Of a DNA stretch of 64,000 nucleotides, positions 41,588 to 46,989 are shown in pieces. Position numbers and translations under genes: made by a program. This DNA is from Candidatus Krumholzibacteriota bacterium (GTDB lineage: Bacteria > Krumholzibacteriota > Krumholzibacteriia > Krumholzibacteriales > Krumholzibacteriaceae). The stretch is taken from assembly GCA_016932415.1 (NCBI GenBank), contig JAFGCX010000016.1:36404-100403 (forward strand), given 5' to 3'. The notes under the pieces are model-generated. The model was not told where the DNA came from. It was given only the letters and a program-made list of their open reading frames with translations, and did no database searches. How positions within the stretch are numbered: position 1 is the stretch's first letter; every line of letters begins with the position of its first letter.

Positions 41588-41615
41588 TTTACTTTCGGTT
41601 TTTTTTCGGTATTAT
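41588..41615 (+). promoter_or_regulatory. lexA promoter with a direct-repeat candidate operator
   Basis: TTTACT (41588-41593) and TATTAT (41610-41615) are 16 bases apart. The spacer holds a direct repeat TTCGGT (41594-41599 and 41605-41610) with a period of 11 bases, resembling in layout the direct-repeat LexA sites of alphaproteobacteria (GTTC-N7-GTTC). Self-repression by LexA is the usual case, so this repeat is a candidate LexA box; the sequence itself differs from known boxes. Confidence 0.4.
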
Positions 41616-41626
41616 ATGAATAAGCT

Positions 41627-41666
41627 CCCCGGGGGATGGCGGCGCATAGCCGCTTTCATCCCCGGG
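41627..41666 (+). promoter_or_regulatory. long stem-loop in the lexA leader
   Basis: A stem of about 15 pairs (CCCGGGG-ATG and GCGGC on the left, GCCGC and CATCCCCGGG on the right, with a bulge and a short internal loop) closes on GCATA. No T run follows, so it is not a terminator. It lies between the lexA promoter and the ribosome site and would be present in the mRNA leader. Confidence 0.5.
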
Positions 41667-41700
41667 AAAGATGTCCAGGCGGGGTTTTACAGGAGGGAAT

Positions 41701-42318
41701 ATGGTCTACCTTACAAGACGTCAGAAGGAGATACTCGATTTTATAGAGGCGTTCCAGGGAGAAAATGGCTACGCCCCGTCGCTCGAAGAGATAGCGGCTC
41801 ATTTCGGACTCTCGGCGGTCAGTACGGTCCACGAGCACCTTTCCAACCTTTCCGCCAAGGGGATGCTCATGCGCGGATCTAACAGGGCGAGGTCGATAGA
41901 GCCGGTTGTCAGCAAAAAAAGGCAGGGTTCTTCGACCGAAGTGATGCTTGCCGGGACTGTCGCCGCCGGTTCACCGATAGAAGCGCTTGAGGTTCCCGAG
42001 ACAGTTGCCCTCCCTCCCGGTCTTGCAGGCAGGGCGGAGACCTTTGCGCTGAGGGTCAGGGGGCTTTCGATGACTGGCGACGGGATACTCGACGGCGATA
42101 TGATAATCGTGGAAAAGGTAGAGAGGGTCAGCAACGGAACGCTTGCCGTCGCTCTGATAGATGGAAGCGAGGCGACCGTGAAGAGATTCTATCAGCGCGG
42201 CGCCGTGGTAACGCTGAGACCTTCCAATCCTGATATGGATGATATCGTCCTTTCCGCCTCGAGAGTGGAGATAATGGGACGGGTGACGGGGCTTATCCGC
42301 GATTACAGGCAGGGTTGA
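41701..42318 (+). CDS. lexA: LexA repressor
   Basis: LexA is the SOS repressor that cleaves itself when RecA is activated. The 205-residue protein has an N-terminal winged helix (about 1-68). The cleavage site is A84-G85 in MLAGTVAAG, and the Ser/Lys pair is S123 (GLSMTGDG) and K161 (ATVKRFY). The ATG at 41701 follows AGGAGGG at ideal spacing; the open frame upstream is not used. It is the first gene of a four-gene cassette ending in dnaE2, as in SOS mutagenesis operons. Confidence 0.95.
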   Translation: MVYLTRRQKEILDFIEAFQGENGYAPSLEEIAAHFGLSAVSTVHEHLSNLSAKGMLMRGSNRARSIEPVVSKKRQGSSTEVMLAGTVAAGSPIEALEVPETVALPPGLAGRAETFALRVRGLSMTGDGILDGDMIIVEKVERVSNGTLAVALIDGSEATVKRFYQRGAVVTLRPSNPDMDDIVLSASRVEIMGRVTGLIRDYRQG

Positions 42319-42319
42319 T

Positions 42320-42577
42320 ATGAAAGGCCTTTCGACGCGGGAGACGGTAAGAGAGAATATGGCGCTTGTCTACCGGAGGGTCGATATGATCCTTTCGTCA
42401 AACAGCCGCGAAGAGGTGCGCGAGGGTGATTGTCTCCTTCTGGAAACGGGACGCAGGCCGAAAAAAGGAGAGCTGGCGCTGATCCGTCGCGGAAGAGTGG
42501 AGACCCTCTGCCGGTGGGACGGCCAGGCGGAGGAAGACCTGCTGGGACTGGTTATAGGCGTAAGGCGAAGGCTTTGA
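42320..42577 (+). CDS. small S24/LexA-C-terminal-like protein lacking the catalytic pair
   Basis: The 85-residue protein starts one base after the lexA stop with AGGG upstream. The segment REGDCLLLETGRRPKKGELALIRRG followed by ETLCRW and LLGLVIGVRR matches the order of strands in S24 (LexA/UmuD) peptidase domains. The catalytic serine region is missing and the catalytic lysine position is C64. It occupies the place where imuA lies in classical lexA-imuA-imuB-dnaE2 cassettes. I infer an accessory or regulatory role in the mutasome; the fold match is by eye only. Confidence 0.5.
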   Translation: MKGLSTRETVRENMALVYRRVDMILSSNSREEVREGDCLLLETGRRPKKGELALIRRGRVETLCRWDGQAEEDLLGLVIGVRRRL

Positions 42578-42675
42578 TATCGCCGCCTCATGTGCGTCCC
42601 GATCCTCCTCGATCGCGGCCAGCGCGGGAGAAGAAGCAGGCAGGGGAGCGGCCAGGCGGCTGTGGGGGCTGATCG

Positions 42676-43887
42676 ATGCCGCGGCAGATATTCCATATAA
42701 ATACGGATGATTTCTATGCTTCGGCTATGAGGCTGCGCGATCCGCAGCTGAAGGGAAGGCCCGTGATCATATCAGGTCCCGCGCCGCGCGGTATCGTCCT
42801 CTCTGCTTCGTACGAGGCGAGGGGTGAAGGCGTCGAAAGGGGGATGAGCGTCGCGGAGGCGAAGAGGCTCTGTTCTGCGGGGCGGTTCCTTCCGCCCGAC
42901 TGGAGGTTCTTCGGCAAAGTGTCGAAAGGTATATTCGGCGTTCTGGAACGGTACAGCCCCGTTGTCGAAGTCGTATCCCTCGACGAGGGATATCTCGATT
43001 ATACGGGGTGCGCACGCGTATTCGGCGATGCGCTCGATATGGGTAGCAGGATAAGGAGGGAGGTCTTCGCCGATACCGGGCTTGATATATCGCTCGGGAT
43101 AGCGTCGAGCAGGCTTGTCAGCCATGTAGCGTCGCGAAGCGCTAAGCGGGCGAATATGATAGATGTATACCCCGGATGCGAACGAAGGTTCCTCGCGCCG
43201 GTGGATATCGGACGGTTCCCGATCGTCGCGGCGAAAGATATACCGGTTTTGCGCGAACTCGGGATATTCAGGGTGGGAGATATCCTGCGTTTTCCCGAAG
43301 AGCTTTTTTCCCTCTGTTTTGGCCGGTGGGGTGTCAGGCTCTATCGCGGGGCGGCCGGCGAGGATCCCAGCAGGGTCAGGAGGGGAAAGAGGGAGGACGA
43401 AAGGTTCAGGGCCGAGCAGCTGTTGCAGCCCGATCTTACAGATACCGGAGCGATTATGGCGGCACTTTACCGGCTGTCGGAAAGACTCGGGGAGAGCCTC
43501 AGGTCGGAAAGGTCGCTCGCCCGGTCGGTCAGGGTAGATATCCGCTATGCCGATTCCGTCGTGGCATCGGGAGTCAGGCGGCTGGAGGGCGAGACATCCG
43601 ATGATCTTCGCGTTTTCGATTCGGCCCGCGCGATCTTTGACCGCCTTTTTGTCAGGAGGGTGCGCCTCCGGTGGGTCTCGATAGCTGTTCCAGGGTACGG
43701 CCCCGAACCTCTTCAGATCGGGCTTTTTTATGAAAGATCTACGGTTACCGAAAAACGAAGGAAGATACTCTCCGTCCTCGACACTCTTCGCGGCAGCTTT
43801 CCCGAAGGGGTCGCGCCGGTATTCGGGAGGGCGATCGAGGCAGGCGATCGATCCCTGACAGGAAAGGCAGCGGATTTCACCGCGTGA
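42676..43887 (+). CDS. Y-family DNA polymerase protein, ImuB/DinB-like
   Basis: The 403-residue protein is collinear with DinB polymerases: FHINTDDFYAS at the N-terminus, VSLDEGYLD (D103, E104), a helix-hairpin-helix near residue 190 and a little-finger domain. The first of the three metal-binding acids, Asp in HxD of DinB, is Asn here (N9), while D103 and E104 are kept. ImuB proteins have lost these acids more fully. A clamp-binding-like motif QIGLF lies near residue 353. It sits between the small S24-like gene and dnaE2, the place of imuB. Confidence 0.85.
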   Translation: MPRQIFHINTDDFYASAMRLRDPQLKGRPVIISGPAPRGIVLSASYEARGEGVERGMSVAEAKRLCSAGRFLPPDWRFFGKVSKGIFGVLERYSPVVEVVSLDEGYLDYTGCARVFGDALDMGSRIRREVFADTGLDISLGIASSRLVSHVASRSAKRANMIDVYPGCERRFLAPVDIGRFPIVAAKDIPVLRELGIFRVGDILRFPEELFSLCFGRWGVRLYRGAAGEDPSRVRRGKREDERFRAEQLLQPDLTDTGAIMAALYRLSERLGESLRSERSLARSVRVDIRYADSVVASGVRRLEGETSDDLRVFDSARAIFDRLFVRRVRLRWVSIAVPGYGPEPLQIGLFYERSTVTEKRRKILSVLDTLRGSFPEGVAPVFGRAIEAGDRSLTGKAADFTA

Positions 43888-43905
43888 ATGAAAGGATCGT
43901 CCGAT

Positions 43906-46900
43906 ATGAAGGAGGAATTTACTCATCTGCACCTGCACTCCAATTTCTCGCTGCTATCGGGAACAGCGACCGTGGAGGAACTTGCCGGGGCAGCCGCCGC
44001 CTGTGGGATGAGAGCGCTCGCTCTGACCGATACTGACAATATGTGCGCTGTCGTACCCTTTGAAAAGGCCTGCCGGAAGGTTGGGATAAGGCCGATATAC
44101 GGTGCCATGATAACCGGGAGCGGAGGAAGGTACGCGGTTGCTCTGGCGCGCAACAACGATGGATACTCGGAGATATGCAGGCTCGTGACAGCCCGACGGC
44201 TCGATGACGATTTTTCCTTCACCGGCCGGATCAGCTCCCTTTCAGACGATCTTTATCTTCTTTGCGGCGACGGGAAGACCGTCTCGACGATGCGAGACCG
44301 TGAAAACCTGCGTGTGCCCCTTCCCGTAGCCGAGGGGATCGATTACGACAGGATAAGGTGGCGGCTAAGGGGTATGGCGCAAAGGTCCGGGGTCAGAACG
44401 GTTGCTGCTGGAGGAATATATTTCGTCGGCCCCCGGGATCATTCCATCCACCGCGTGCTTACCGCGATAAGGACCGGAACGACAGTCGGCAGGCTCGATG
44501 CCGGCGAAGTGGCGCCGCCGGGAGCTTTTTTCCGCGCGGCGGAAAGGGTGCGAAGGACTTTCGCCGATGACAGGGAATCGTTCGATGAAGCGGGGAGAAT
44601 AGCCCGCGACTGCACGGCCGATCCAGGGCTCGGCCGCCGACGGCTGCCGAGGTTTTCGGTACCTCCCGGAGAAAGCGCCTCTTCATATCTCAGGCGTATA
44701 GCATCGAGGGGGCTCGCCGAACGGCTCGGCGGACGGGCAGGGCCGGCGGAGACAGAAAGGGCCAGAGAGACTCTCGATCACGAACTCTCCGTGATTGGAG
44801 GGAAGGGGCTTGCCGACTATTTCCTTATCTGCTGGGATATCGTAAGGTTTGCCCGCGGCAGGGGGATATCTTCGGTCGGCCGCGGGTCGGCGGGGAACAG
44901 CCTCGTCTCGTACAGCCTTCGCATAACAGATGTCAACCCGTTGCGCCACAACATGTTTTTCGAGAGATTCCTCAATCCCGAGAGGGAACAGCTTCCCGAT
45001 TTCGATATAGATTTTGCCACTGGGGACCGTGAGAAGGTGCTCGAATATATATTCCGCAGATACGGAAGCGAAAGGGTGGCGATGATCGGCACTTTCAGCA
45101 CGCTGCGCGCCCGCGCAGCCCTGCGCGAGACGGCCAAAGCCCTCGGTATTCCGGAAGGGGAAGTAGCTCCTTTCATAAGACGGATCCCGTTCTACGCGGC
45201 GATAGACAAACTCGACCTGCTACCGGCGGCTTCGCCCGCCGCTGCCGGTCTCGACCCCGCGTTGGAACCTCTTCGGACCCTTCTTCCGATTGCCAGGCGG
45301 ATCGGAGGTTTTCCCAGGCATATGGCGACTCATCCGTGCGGTCTCGTGATCTCACCCGAGCCGATCACCTCCCTCGTCCCTCTTCAGAGAGGCGATAAGG
45401 GGTATGAGATCACTCAATGGTCGATGTACGATATAGAGGCGGCCGGACTTGTCAAAATCGATATCATCGGGCAGAAGGGGCTTGCCGTGATCGCCGAGAC
45501 GGCCGCGATGGCATCAGTGAACGAGGGGAGGCCTCTTCACAGGGAAAGGATCGATTACCTCGATGATCCTGCCGCCAGGAAGATCGTTCGGGAGGGCAGG
45601 ACGCAGGGATGTTTTTATATAGAATCTCCAATAATGATGCAGCTTCTGCGGCAGGCGCGCTGCGACGATTTCGAGGTCCTCACAGCCCTTTCATCGATCA
45701 TACGCCCGGGCGTATCGAGCCATGGAGGCAAGAAAAGCTATCTGCACAGGCAACTTGGGATCGAGCCGGTTCCGGAGATGCATCCGGCGGTCGCTGAAGT
45801 CCTTGCCGACACCTTTGGGTGCCTGATCTACCAGGAACAGGTCATAAAGATCGCCGTCAATGTAGCCGGAATGAGTTACGCGGAGGCCGACGGTCTGCGC
45901 AGGTGCATGTCGTTCAAGAACCTCGACGAGGAGACGATTGCCGGGTACCGCGATTCCTTCATCGGGGGAGCGCTCGGGCGCGGCATTCCCCCCGGGGTGG
46001 CCGATGATATATTCCGGCGGATAGCGGCCTTTGCCGGATACGCTTTCTGCAAGGCGCACTCGGCATCGTTCGCCCTCGAATCGTTTGAAAGCGCCTGGTG
46101 GAAGGCGCACTATCCGGCCGAGTTCATGGCGGCGGTGATATCGAACGGCGGCGGGTACTACTCGCACGAAGAATATCTTGAGGAAGCGAAAAGGCTCGGA
46201 TTGAAAGTGCTTCCTCCCTGCGTCAACGAAAGCGGGATAAGGCATCATGGAAAAGATGGTGTCCTGAGGATAGGGTTGATGCAGATCAAGGGCCTGAGGA
46301 GGAGTACGGCGGAGAAGATCGTCGAGGAAGCTGAAATATCTTCTTTTGTCTCACTTGAGGATCTTCTCGTCAGGGTCGGGCCTTCACGGGCGGAGACAGT
46401 ATCGCTGATCCGGTGCGGAGCGATGATTTCATTCGGGGCTTCGCGTCCTGAACTGATGTGGCAGATGCGTCTTCTGAATGCCTGCGAGGAGCAGCCTTCG
46501 CCGCGGGACTCTGCCCCCGCCCCGCGCTCGGTCGTAATGCGGATACTGGCATCAGGGATCCCCGAGATCCCCGATTATGACCTTCAAAAGAGTCTCGAGG
46601 CGGAAAGGGATATCCTTGACCTGTGCGTCAGCGGCCATCCTCTGGACATATTCGATGATTTGATATCGCCGCTTGCCGCGCGGCATCGCCTGGTAAAGTC
46701 GACTTCCCTGGCGCGGATGGAAGGGCGCGAGGTCGATATAGTAGGATGGAAAGTCACCGCGAAGGCGACAAGGACCGCCGATGAAGGATCGGAGATGATC
46801 TTTGTGACATTTTCTGACAGGTGGGGAAGATTTGAGGCTGTTTTTTTTCCGGAGGTCTACAGGAGGACTGCTAAAGAGCTTGTCCGGGGACGGGGACCGT

Positions 46901-46989
46901 TTCATATCCGCGGGAGGGTCGAAACCGAGCTGGGGGTCGAAAGCCTTGTAGTGAGCGGGGCGCGGTTTATGCGCCGCGGAGTGCGGTGA
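43906..46989 (+). CDS. dnaE2: error-prone DNA polymerase III alpha subunit DnaE2 (ImuC)
   Basis: DnaE2 is the catalytic polymerase of SOS-induced translesion synthesis. The protein of about 1027 residues has an N-terminal PHP domain (HLHLHSNFSLL), the palm acids in PDFDIDF around residue 365, a third acid in VKIDIIGQKG, a helix-hairpin-helix region and a C-terminal OB fold. This is the short DnaE2 length against about 1160 for replicative DnaE. In the PHP domain TDTDN replaces the usual TDHGN, so that metal site is altered. The ATG at 43906 follows AAAGGA; the ATG at 43888 abuts the previous stop. Confidence 0.9.
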   Translation: MKEEFTHLHLHSNFSLLSGTATVEELAGAAAACGMRALALTDTDNMCAVVPFEKACRKVGIRPIYGAMITGSGGRYAVALARNNDGYSEICRLVTARRLDDDFSFTGRISSLSDDLYLLCGDGKTVSTMRDRENLRVPLPVAEGIDYDRIRWRLRGMAQRSGVRTVAAGGIYFVGPRDHSIHRVLTAIRTGTTVGRLDAGEVAPPGAFFRAAERVRRTFADDRESFDEAGRIARDCTADPGLGRRRLPRFSVPPGESASSYLRRIASRGLAERLGGRAGPAETERARETLDHELSVIGGKGLADYFLICWDIVRFARGRGISSVGRGSAGNSLVSYSLRITDVNPLRHNMFFERFLNPEREQLPDFDIDFATGDREKVLEYIFRRYGSERVAMIGTFSTLRARAALRETAKALGIPEGEVAPFIRRIPFYAAIDKLDLLPAASPAAAGLDPALEPLRTLLPIARRIGGFPRHMATHPCGLVISPEPITSLVPLQRGDKGYEITQWSMYDIEAAGLVKIDIIGQKGLAVIAETAAMASVNEGRPLHRERIDYLDDPAARKIVREGRTQGCFYIESPIMMQLLRQARCDDFEVLTALSSIIRPGVSSHGGKKSYLHRQLGIEPVPEMHPAVAEVLADTFGCLIYQEQVIKIAVNVAGMSYAEADGLRRCMSFKNLDEETIAGYRDSFIGGALGRGIPPGVADDIFRRIAAFAGYAFCKAHSASFALESFESAWWKAHYPAEFMAAVISNGGGYYSHEEYLEEAKRLGLKVLPPCVNESGIRHHGKDGVLRIGLMQIKGLRRSTAEKIVEEAEISSFVSLEDLLVRVGPSRAETVSLIRCGAMISFGASRPELMWQMRLLNACEEQPSPRDSAPAPRSVVMRILASGIPEIPDYDLQKSLEAERDILDLCVSGHPLDIFDDLISPLAARHRLVKSTSLARMEGREVDIVGWKVTAKATRTADEGSEMIFVTFSDRWGRFEAVFFPEVYRRTAKELVRGRGPFHIRGRVETELGVESLVVSGARFMRRGVR

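Follow-up and report, generated by a model that had tools for sequence, protein, structure and literature searches.

A lexA-linked DnaE2 cassette of Candidatus Krumholzibacteriota carrying a conserved, trimmed S24-type gene beside an atypical Y-family polymerase gene

The stretch of DNA analysed here (the window, 64,000 nucleotides) comes from a 3.1 Mb, 95% complete genome of Candidatus Krumholzibacteriota, and its nearest named relatives are metagenome-assembled genomes of Candidatus Krumholzibacteriota. One predicted promoter in the window is followed, in tandem on the plus strand, by lexA, a small gene, a gene for a Y-family polymerase-like protein (polY) and dnaE2. Gene calls and family scans agree with the four-gene SOS-type cassette that a first-pass annotation had placed here, and the start it gave, 41588, is the first base of the predicted promoter. 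Our findings centre on the small gene, a real and conserved component of the cassette that has apparently not been described before. The features of the cassette are as follows.

41588..41616, + strand: cassette promoter (predicted), with -35 element, direct repeat and -10 element
41701..42318, + strand: lexA (TIGR00498, PF00717, alignment)
42320..42577, + strand: small gene, predicted to encode a degenerate S24 C-terminal-domain protein of 85 amino acids (aa) (conservation, S24 fold, profile match, purifying selection)
42676..43887, + strand: Y-family polymerase-like protein, 403 aa (PF00817, PF11799, residue table, C-terminal alignment)
43888..46989, + strand: second DnaE, DnaE2-like, 1033 aa (family scans, tree)

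The small gene and its product

The small gene starts 1 nt past the lexA stop. Conservation of its frame in relatives, which the first-pass annotation had proposed as a check, is borne out: in a search of relatives, 11 of the order's 25 genomes gave a match (E 1e-10 to 1e-51), spanning two families, and the gene lies between lexA and polY in every one of the 11 cases in which that interval is on one contig, contig ends interrupting the interval in three further cassettes. Within the order it was never seen without polY, and it was not found in the order's genomes that have no cassette, some of which (G002, G010 and G020) do encode LexA. Genome contigs from 84,980 species yielded just seven loci, all of the Krumholzibacteriota type, and a scan of viral contigs gave no relative of the small protein. 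Ratios of non-synonymous to synonymous substitution (dN/dS) were 0.24, 0.16 and 0.09 (0.158/0.652, 0.072/0.457 and 0.013/0.149). The small gene is real and under purifying selection, and is no chance open reading frame. All members share a conserved core of about 72 residues, which in the window begins at the in-frame ATG at 42359; the 13-residue N-terminal extension that makes up the 85-aa form occurs only in the window and in the other member of its genus. Elsewhere in the phylum, other families gave weak profile matches in longer frames, one of them a LexA-like protein. In the window a gap of 98 bp (42578-42675) separates the small gene from polY; in the sister genome (G001) the gap is almost gone and polY starts 4 nt past the last sense codon of the small gene.

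A profile built from the 11 members matched the S24 C-terminal-domain profile with an E-value of 3.4e-6 (hhalign), and with 1.4e-8 once a divergent protein from another family of the class (genome G025, below) was added. Individually, the 11 natural sequences scored 6.3-10.9 bits against the S24 model and 2600 shuffled sequences 6.5 bits or less, a margin that is thin for the lowest-scoring members. Structure prediction with AlphaFold2, also suggested in the first-pass annotation, gave an S24-like fold for both the 85-aa form (predicted local distance difference test, pLDDT, 76; predicted TM-score, pTM, 0.63) and the 72-aa core (pLDDT 81, pTM 0.67). In Foldseek comparisons with the PDB the first 27 rows for the longer form and the first 31 for the core were LexA, lambda CI and UmuD, with weak E-values (best 0.008), probabilities of about 1 and TM-scores on the query of up to 0.76. 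VIA-align superposed the predicted model over 70 residues on LexA (Z 8.8, 2.1 A) and UmuD' (Z 8.7, 2.4 A), the top Z-scores ranging from 8.2 to 8.8 across 68-70 residues, and the aligned region begins at residue 149 of M. tuberculosis LexA, 108 of E. coli LexA (to 199) and 49 of UmuD'. A Z-score near 8 can by itself reflect a common arrangement, so the assignment rests on profile, fold and context pointing the same way. Three parts of LexA are missing from the small protein, namely its DNA-binding domain, its cleavage loop and the stretch ahead of the last strand; the C-terminal strand is kept in the model. The small protein is, as judged from profile and predicted model, a trimmed S24 (LexA/UmuD) C-terminal domain, so that the likeness to a LexA/UmuD C-terminal domain first noted for 85 residues holds, albeit with a conserved core of only 72.

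Scans of the small protein against Pfam, NCBIfam and PADLOC returned nothing, PF00717 remaining below its cut-off; PHROGs gave weak UmuD-like matches for the most divergent member only, a sequence search of the PDB gave chance matches only, and the family scans showed no RecA-like match. For the 72-residue window family, comparison did not tell a LexA origin from a UmuD origin. Identity with ImuB-C (DUF6504, PF20114) was tried and rejected, an hhalign comparison with nine ImuB-C sequences aligning a single column at E 0.7. A standalone ImuB-C domain diverged past recognition would account for an operon slot like that of the Geobacter lexA-imuB-C-polY module (PMC6511836), yet it is very improbable given that E-value beside 3.4e-6 for S24 and the lack of PF20114 matches at E<=1 across the genome; in addition, the barrel of ImuB-C differs from the SH3-type barrel of UmuD' according to PMC12926913.

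The small protein also appears to have lost the chemistry of its family. The known mechanism of self-cleavage uses a Ser-Lys dyad, and all 11 small proteins have Cys, Arg or His in place of the Lys; since the Lys is lost in every copy, the small protein should be protease-dead whatever stands at the Ser position. That position is itself ambiguous in the alignment: at the site of the LexA Ser, ten residues ahead of the Asp in the GD motif, 10 of the 11 proteins have S, A or G and the eleventh has another residue, and an 'LS' one position earlier is retained in 10 of 11. The first-pass claim that both residues are missing can be maintained for the Lys and is uncertain for the Ser. There is no cleavage region, nor a UmuD-type dyad with a self-cleavable arm, and the small protein should be a pseudo-enzyme without self-cleavage. 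Separately, genome G040 (L153:2350-3027) encodes a full-length LexA-like protein with VLIRRFF against ATVKRFY, in which the dyad Lys is apparently replaced and the Ser apparently intact; it is possibly a non-cleavable LexA paralogue.

Comparable arrangements occur elsewhere. In G025, lexA is followed by a 92-aa frame that scores 31.1 bits against the Pfam S24 model (profile positions 48-116), enough for its cut-off, has neither dyad Ser nor Lys and is nearest to LexA among known proteins compared; two contigs, which share an overlap of about 131 bp at 97-99% identity, put a Y-family protein with Asn at position 8 (N8 PolY) directly after this gene. This is the same arrangement as in the window, though common descent of the small gene is unproven. 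That the G025 protein is closest to LexA, and that the window protein is trimmed and protease-dead, would also fit a functionless relic of a lexA duplication, but a frame kept open in 11 genomes of two families at dN/dS of 0.09-0.24 makes such a relic scarcely credible. In G086 (L154:3319-5597), an unrelated genome outside the class, the gene after lexA encodes a UmuD-like protein of 127 aa in which Ala stands for the dyad Ser and Arg for the Lys, and the next gene a Y-family polymerase that looks active and whose tail resembles the RecA N-terminal motif (RecA-NT-like). By its sequence this is a second case of the lexA-polY slot being taken by a dead S24 gene, apparently of independent origin, and suggests that the step was made more than once. 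A Desulfosarcina ovata plasmid with a related DnaE (L201:1228-7003) shows the order lexA, DUF72, degenerate Y-family protein, DnaE. The occupant of the lexA-polY slot thus varies with the lineage: the unrelated DUF72 gene here, ImuB-C or an S24 remnant elsewhere.

LexA, its putative box and the flanking genes

The lexA reading frame opens at 41671, and the start at 41701 is preceded by AGGAGGG and agrees with the start in relatives. LexA scores 184.7 bits against TIGR00498 (cut-off 110.95), passing as an equivalog, matches PF00717 at 1.5e-28 and is intact in alignment, with the Ala-Gly of the cleavage region, the Ser and the Lys all there. The promoter is sigma-70-like, with TTTACT (41588-41593) as its -35 and ATTATA (41611-41616) as its -10 element, and the spacer between them contains the direct repeat TTCGG-N6-TTCGG (41594-41609). 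Each of the 11 cassette genomes has an element of the TTGACTTTCGGTTTTTGTTCGGGTATA type ahead of lexA, with a single base change in one half-site in G001. In two further genomes, G033 and G047, where polY is detached from lexA, the same element is found about 60 bp upstream of polY, and G033 has a near copy ahead of lexA as well. The ten genomes searched for further sites all have a perfect or one-mismatch copy upstream of lexA; the single perfect copy found elsewhere in them is G006:C131, and the remaining one-mismatch sites outnumber those in a reversed control only modestly. The known LexA boxes CTGT-N8-ACAG, GAAC-N4-GTTC and GTTC-N7-GTTC were not found upstream of lexA. On this comparative evidence the repeat is most likely the LexA box, and the simplest reading is that it serves mainly the cassette operon. 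The window genome has no second perfect copy of the putative box and the recA loci of four genomes have no copy, hinting at a LexA regulon nearly limited to its own operon. A literature search turned up no publication about the Krumholzibacteriota SOS response, and the cassette offers a compact, single-promoter SOS mutagenesis unit from an uncultured phylum with a putative LexA box that can be tested. The genes flanking the cassette look ordinary: an MFS-type transporter (by resemblance only) and folE (by family) upstream, and an NfnAB-type pair (by resemblance only) downstream.

The Y-family protein and the second DnaE

The Y-family protein matches PF00817 (3.4e-41) and PF11799 (2.9e-12). Its motif I reads HINTDDF, in which the equivalent of E. 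coli DinB D8 is Asn (D8N), with D103 and E104 kept; the pattern [HY]-[VI]-N-[TS]-D-D-F is present in 13 of 13 Y-family copies that cover the site, again with D103/E104 retained, and the other DinB of the same genome has a canonical motif I. The Asp equivalent to D8 is a metal ligand in Y-family enzymes, and its replacement by Asn means that activity is probably lost or strongly reduced; the protein is, on its sequence, probably catalytically impaired. A clamp-type motif, QIGLF in the window, recurs as Q-x-x-L-F/I in nearly all copies, and nearly all have, judged by eye, a RecA-NT-like segment after it; a RecA N-terminal motif has been described for UmuC and ImuB (PMC6511836). An ImuB identity was considered for the protein and rejected, as no ImuB-C domain was found and it keeps two of the three catalytic carboxylates; by these sequence features it is of the UmuC/DinB type. 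The comparison with lexA-imuA-imuB-dnaE2 cassettes made in the first-pass annotation did not survive, since the ImuA profile (NF033429), searched against the genome, was answered only by the 366-aa RecA, below cut-off, and the Y-family protein, with its D8N, belongs to the UmuC/DinB type instead of being an ImuB.

The DnaE2-like protein has the polymerase carboxylates (PDFDIDF), and a 1144-aa DnaE1 is encoded elsewhere in the genome. In a tree that contains no published DnaE2B reference labels, the cassette DnaE falls with DnaE proteins from Bacteroidota and from the Desulfosarcina plasmid, apart from DnaE1 and from the DnaE2 linked to ImuA/ImuB. A 945-aa frame at G000:C38:11956-14511, with about 25% identity to DnaE2, is apparently a third C-family polymerase-like protein of the window's genome, and similar frames of 900-1100 aa occur in relatives.

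A possible role for the small protein and comparison with known systems

In Pol V, a UmuD' dimer plays a bridging or stabilising part for UmuC, and ImuB-C has been modelled in such a part within the ImuA-ImuB-DnaE2 complex. By analogy, the explanation that we favour, and hold with somewhat more confidence than doubt, is a LexA-controlled, ImuA-less translesion mutasome with the small protein as a UmuD'-like subunit; the new mutasome accessory factor suggested in the first-pass annotation is the best explanation here too. In this complex, DnaE2 would be the synthesising polymerase, the D8N Y-family protein would act mainly as a scaffold touching the sliding clamp (QxxLF) and RecA (RecA-NT-like tail), and the 72-residue S24 core would be a permanently 'processed', protease-dead small subunit that may bridge or stabilise the Y-family protein and DnaE2. 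Because the small protein has neither a cleavable arm nor the dyad Lys, control would be exerted by transcription only, through the LexA box, and not by RecA-driven cleavage. If this is true, a self-cleaving SOS switch has been stripped to its structural part, with control moved wholly to transcription. What we observe is the gene order, its conservation, the selection, the similarity of the predicted fold, the lost Lys, D8N, the motifs and the conserved box; LexA binding to the box, complex formation, contact with RecA, inactivity of the Y-family protein and the role of the small protein are inferred. This mutasome is supported by the strict lexA-small gene-polY-dnaE2 linkage, by the lack of the small gene in genomes of the order that have no cassette, by the S24 fold and profile match, by the invariant D8N and by the clamp and RecA-NT-like motifs. 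It is further supported by the copy of the box retained by detached polY genes, by the G025 parallel and by published ImuA-less precedents (PMC6511836, PMC12926913).

Several observations weigh against a UmuD'-like subunit. One lost carboxylate is no proof of inactivity, and a new Asp at position 11 of the Y-family protein might compensate. The Y-family tail past the RecA-NT-like segment is not conserved, so that the docking site of the UmuC type for UmuD' seems to be missing, and the small gene is missing from G033, although that genome has lexA-dnaE2 and an N8 PolY. LexA dimerises through its C-terminal strand, and because the small gene adjoins lexA and its product keeps this strand, LexA could be the partner instead. 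The shared strand and this adjacency make a LexA modulator, a role that the first-pass annotation had also raised, the main rival: the small protein would form a heterodimer with LexA via the S24 C-terminal strand, or compete for the RecA filament. Such a protein, made from the lexA operon itself, could tune LexA dimerisation, DNA binding or cleavage and so brake or accelerate the SOS response by feedback. The start of the small gene 1 nt after lexA, the LexA C-terminal fold and the unconserved docking tail all favour a modulator, but we consider both versions of it unlikely given that G002, G010 and G020 have LexA without the cassette or the small gene, that within the order the small gene is never seen without polY, and that the precedent of small beta-barrel subunits points to polymerases (PMC6511836, PMC12926913). 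The small proteins also end in a basic stretch that hardly varies, [KR]R[KR], and an RW pair is invariant among them. These features raise the less probable alternative that the main binding partner of the small protein is DNA or RecA and that it brings the mutasome to lesions rather than bridging polymerases; LexA and UmuD C-terminal domains bind the RecA filament (in structures among the fold matches, such as 8gmt and 8gms) and ImuB-C has been proposed to bind DNA (PMC3765255), although the part of the domain that includes the cleavage loop is trimmed here.

Compared with known systems, the UmuD'-like subunit that we favour resembles UmuD' and HumD in its S24 C-terminal-domain fold without a cleavable arm, its SOS-type operon and its place next to a Y-family gene whose product has clamp and RecA-NT-like motifs. 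It differs in having about 70 rather than about 115 residues, with the stretch ahead of the last strand gone and the Lys lost, and in a partner that is apparently impaired, is joined by DnaE2 and has no conserved UmuC-type C-terminal tail. Fold and strand order are shared with the LexA C-terminal domain, which the small protein falls short of in length and by its lack of a DNA-binding domain, cleavage loop and Lys. Like the ImuA-ImuB-DnaE2 mutasome, the cassette is a LexA-linked operon with DnaE2 last and an apparently impaired Y-family protein; unlike it, it has no detected ImuA or ImuB-C, and its DnaE branches apart.

Closer parallels are the ImuA-less modules, in which a standalone ImuB-C can lie between lexA and polY (PMC6511836; PMC12926913). 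Those described by Timinskas and Venclovas include lexA-imuB-C-polY in Geobacter, iPolY-ImuB-C-DnaE2 in Kyrpidia and DnaE2-iPolY in Streptomyces (PMC6511836), and a 2026 census by the same authors counts 11 module types (PMC12926913). The Geobacter module and the Kyrpidia 'DnaE2X' share a similar gene order and a small beta-rich protein by polY with the window, whose small protein is of S24 rather than ImuB-C type (PMC6511836). The window shows the gene combination of DnaE2-iPolY-RecA modules, namely a PolY with a disrupted active site and a RecA-NT-like segment in a DnaE2 operon without ImuA or ImuB. With the DnaE2B-iPolY-RecA module (gbDinB2/scDinB2) the window shares an inactive-looking PolY with a RecA-NT motif, an ImuA-independent DnaE2 and lexA, which often accompanies that module; the available text of the census reports no small subunit for it, whereas the window has a conserved S24 remnant, and its PolY is changed at one carboxylate only (PMC12926913). 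The composition of the window matches no published module type in PMC6511836 or in the available text of PMC12926913, and the chances seem even that DnaE2, a PolY putatively inactivated by one residue, RecA and a dead, minimal LexA/UmuD C-domain subunit form a mutasome type beyond the 11 listed there. Bacterial mutasomes repeatedly include small beta-rich subunits (UmuD', YolD/YqjX and ImuB-C), and a 72-residue S24 core that lacks the cleavage machinery and is fixed beside an apparently impaired Y-family protein and DnaE2 would provide a natural minimal case in which the structural role of UmuD' is split from its protease switch.

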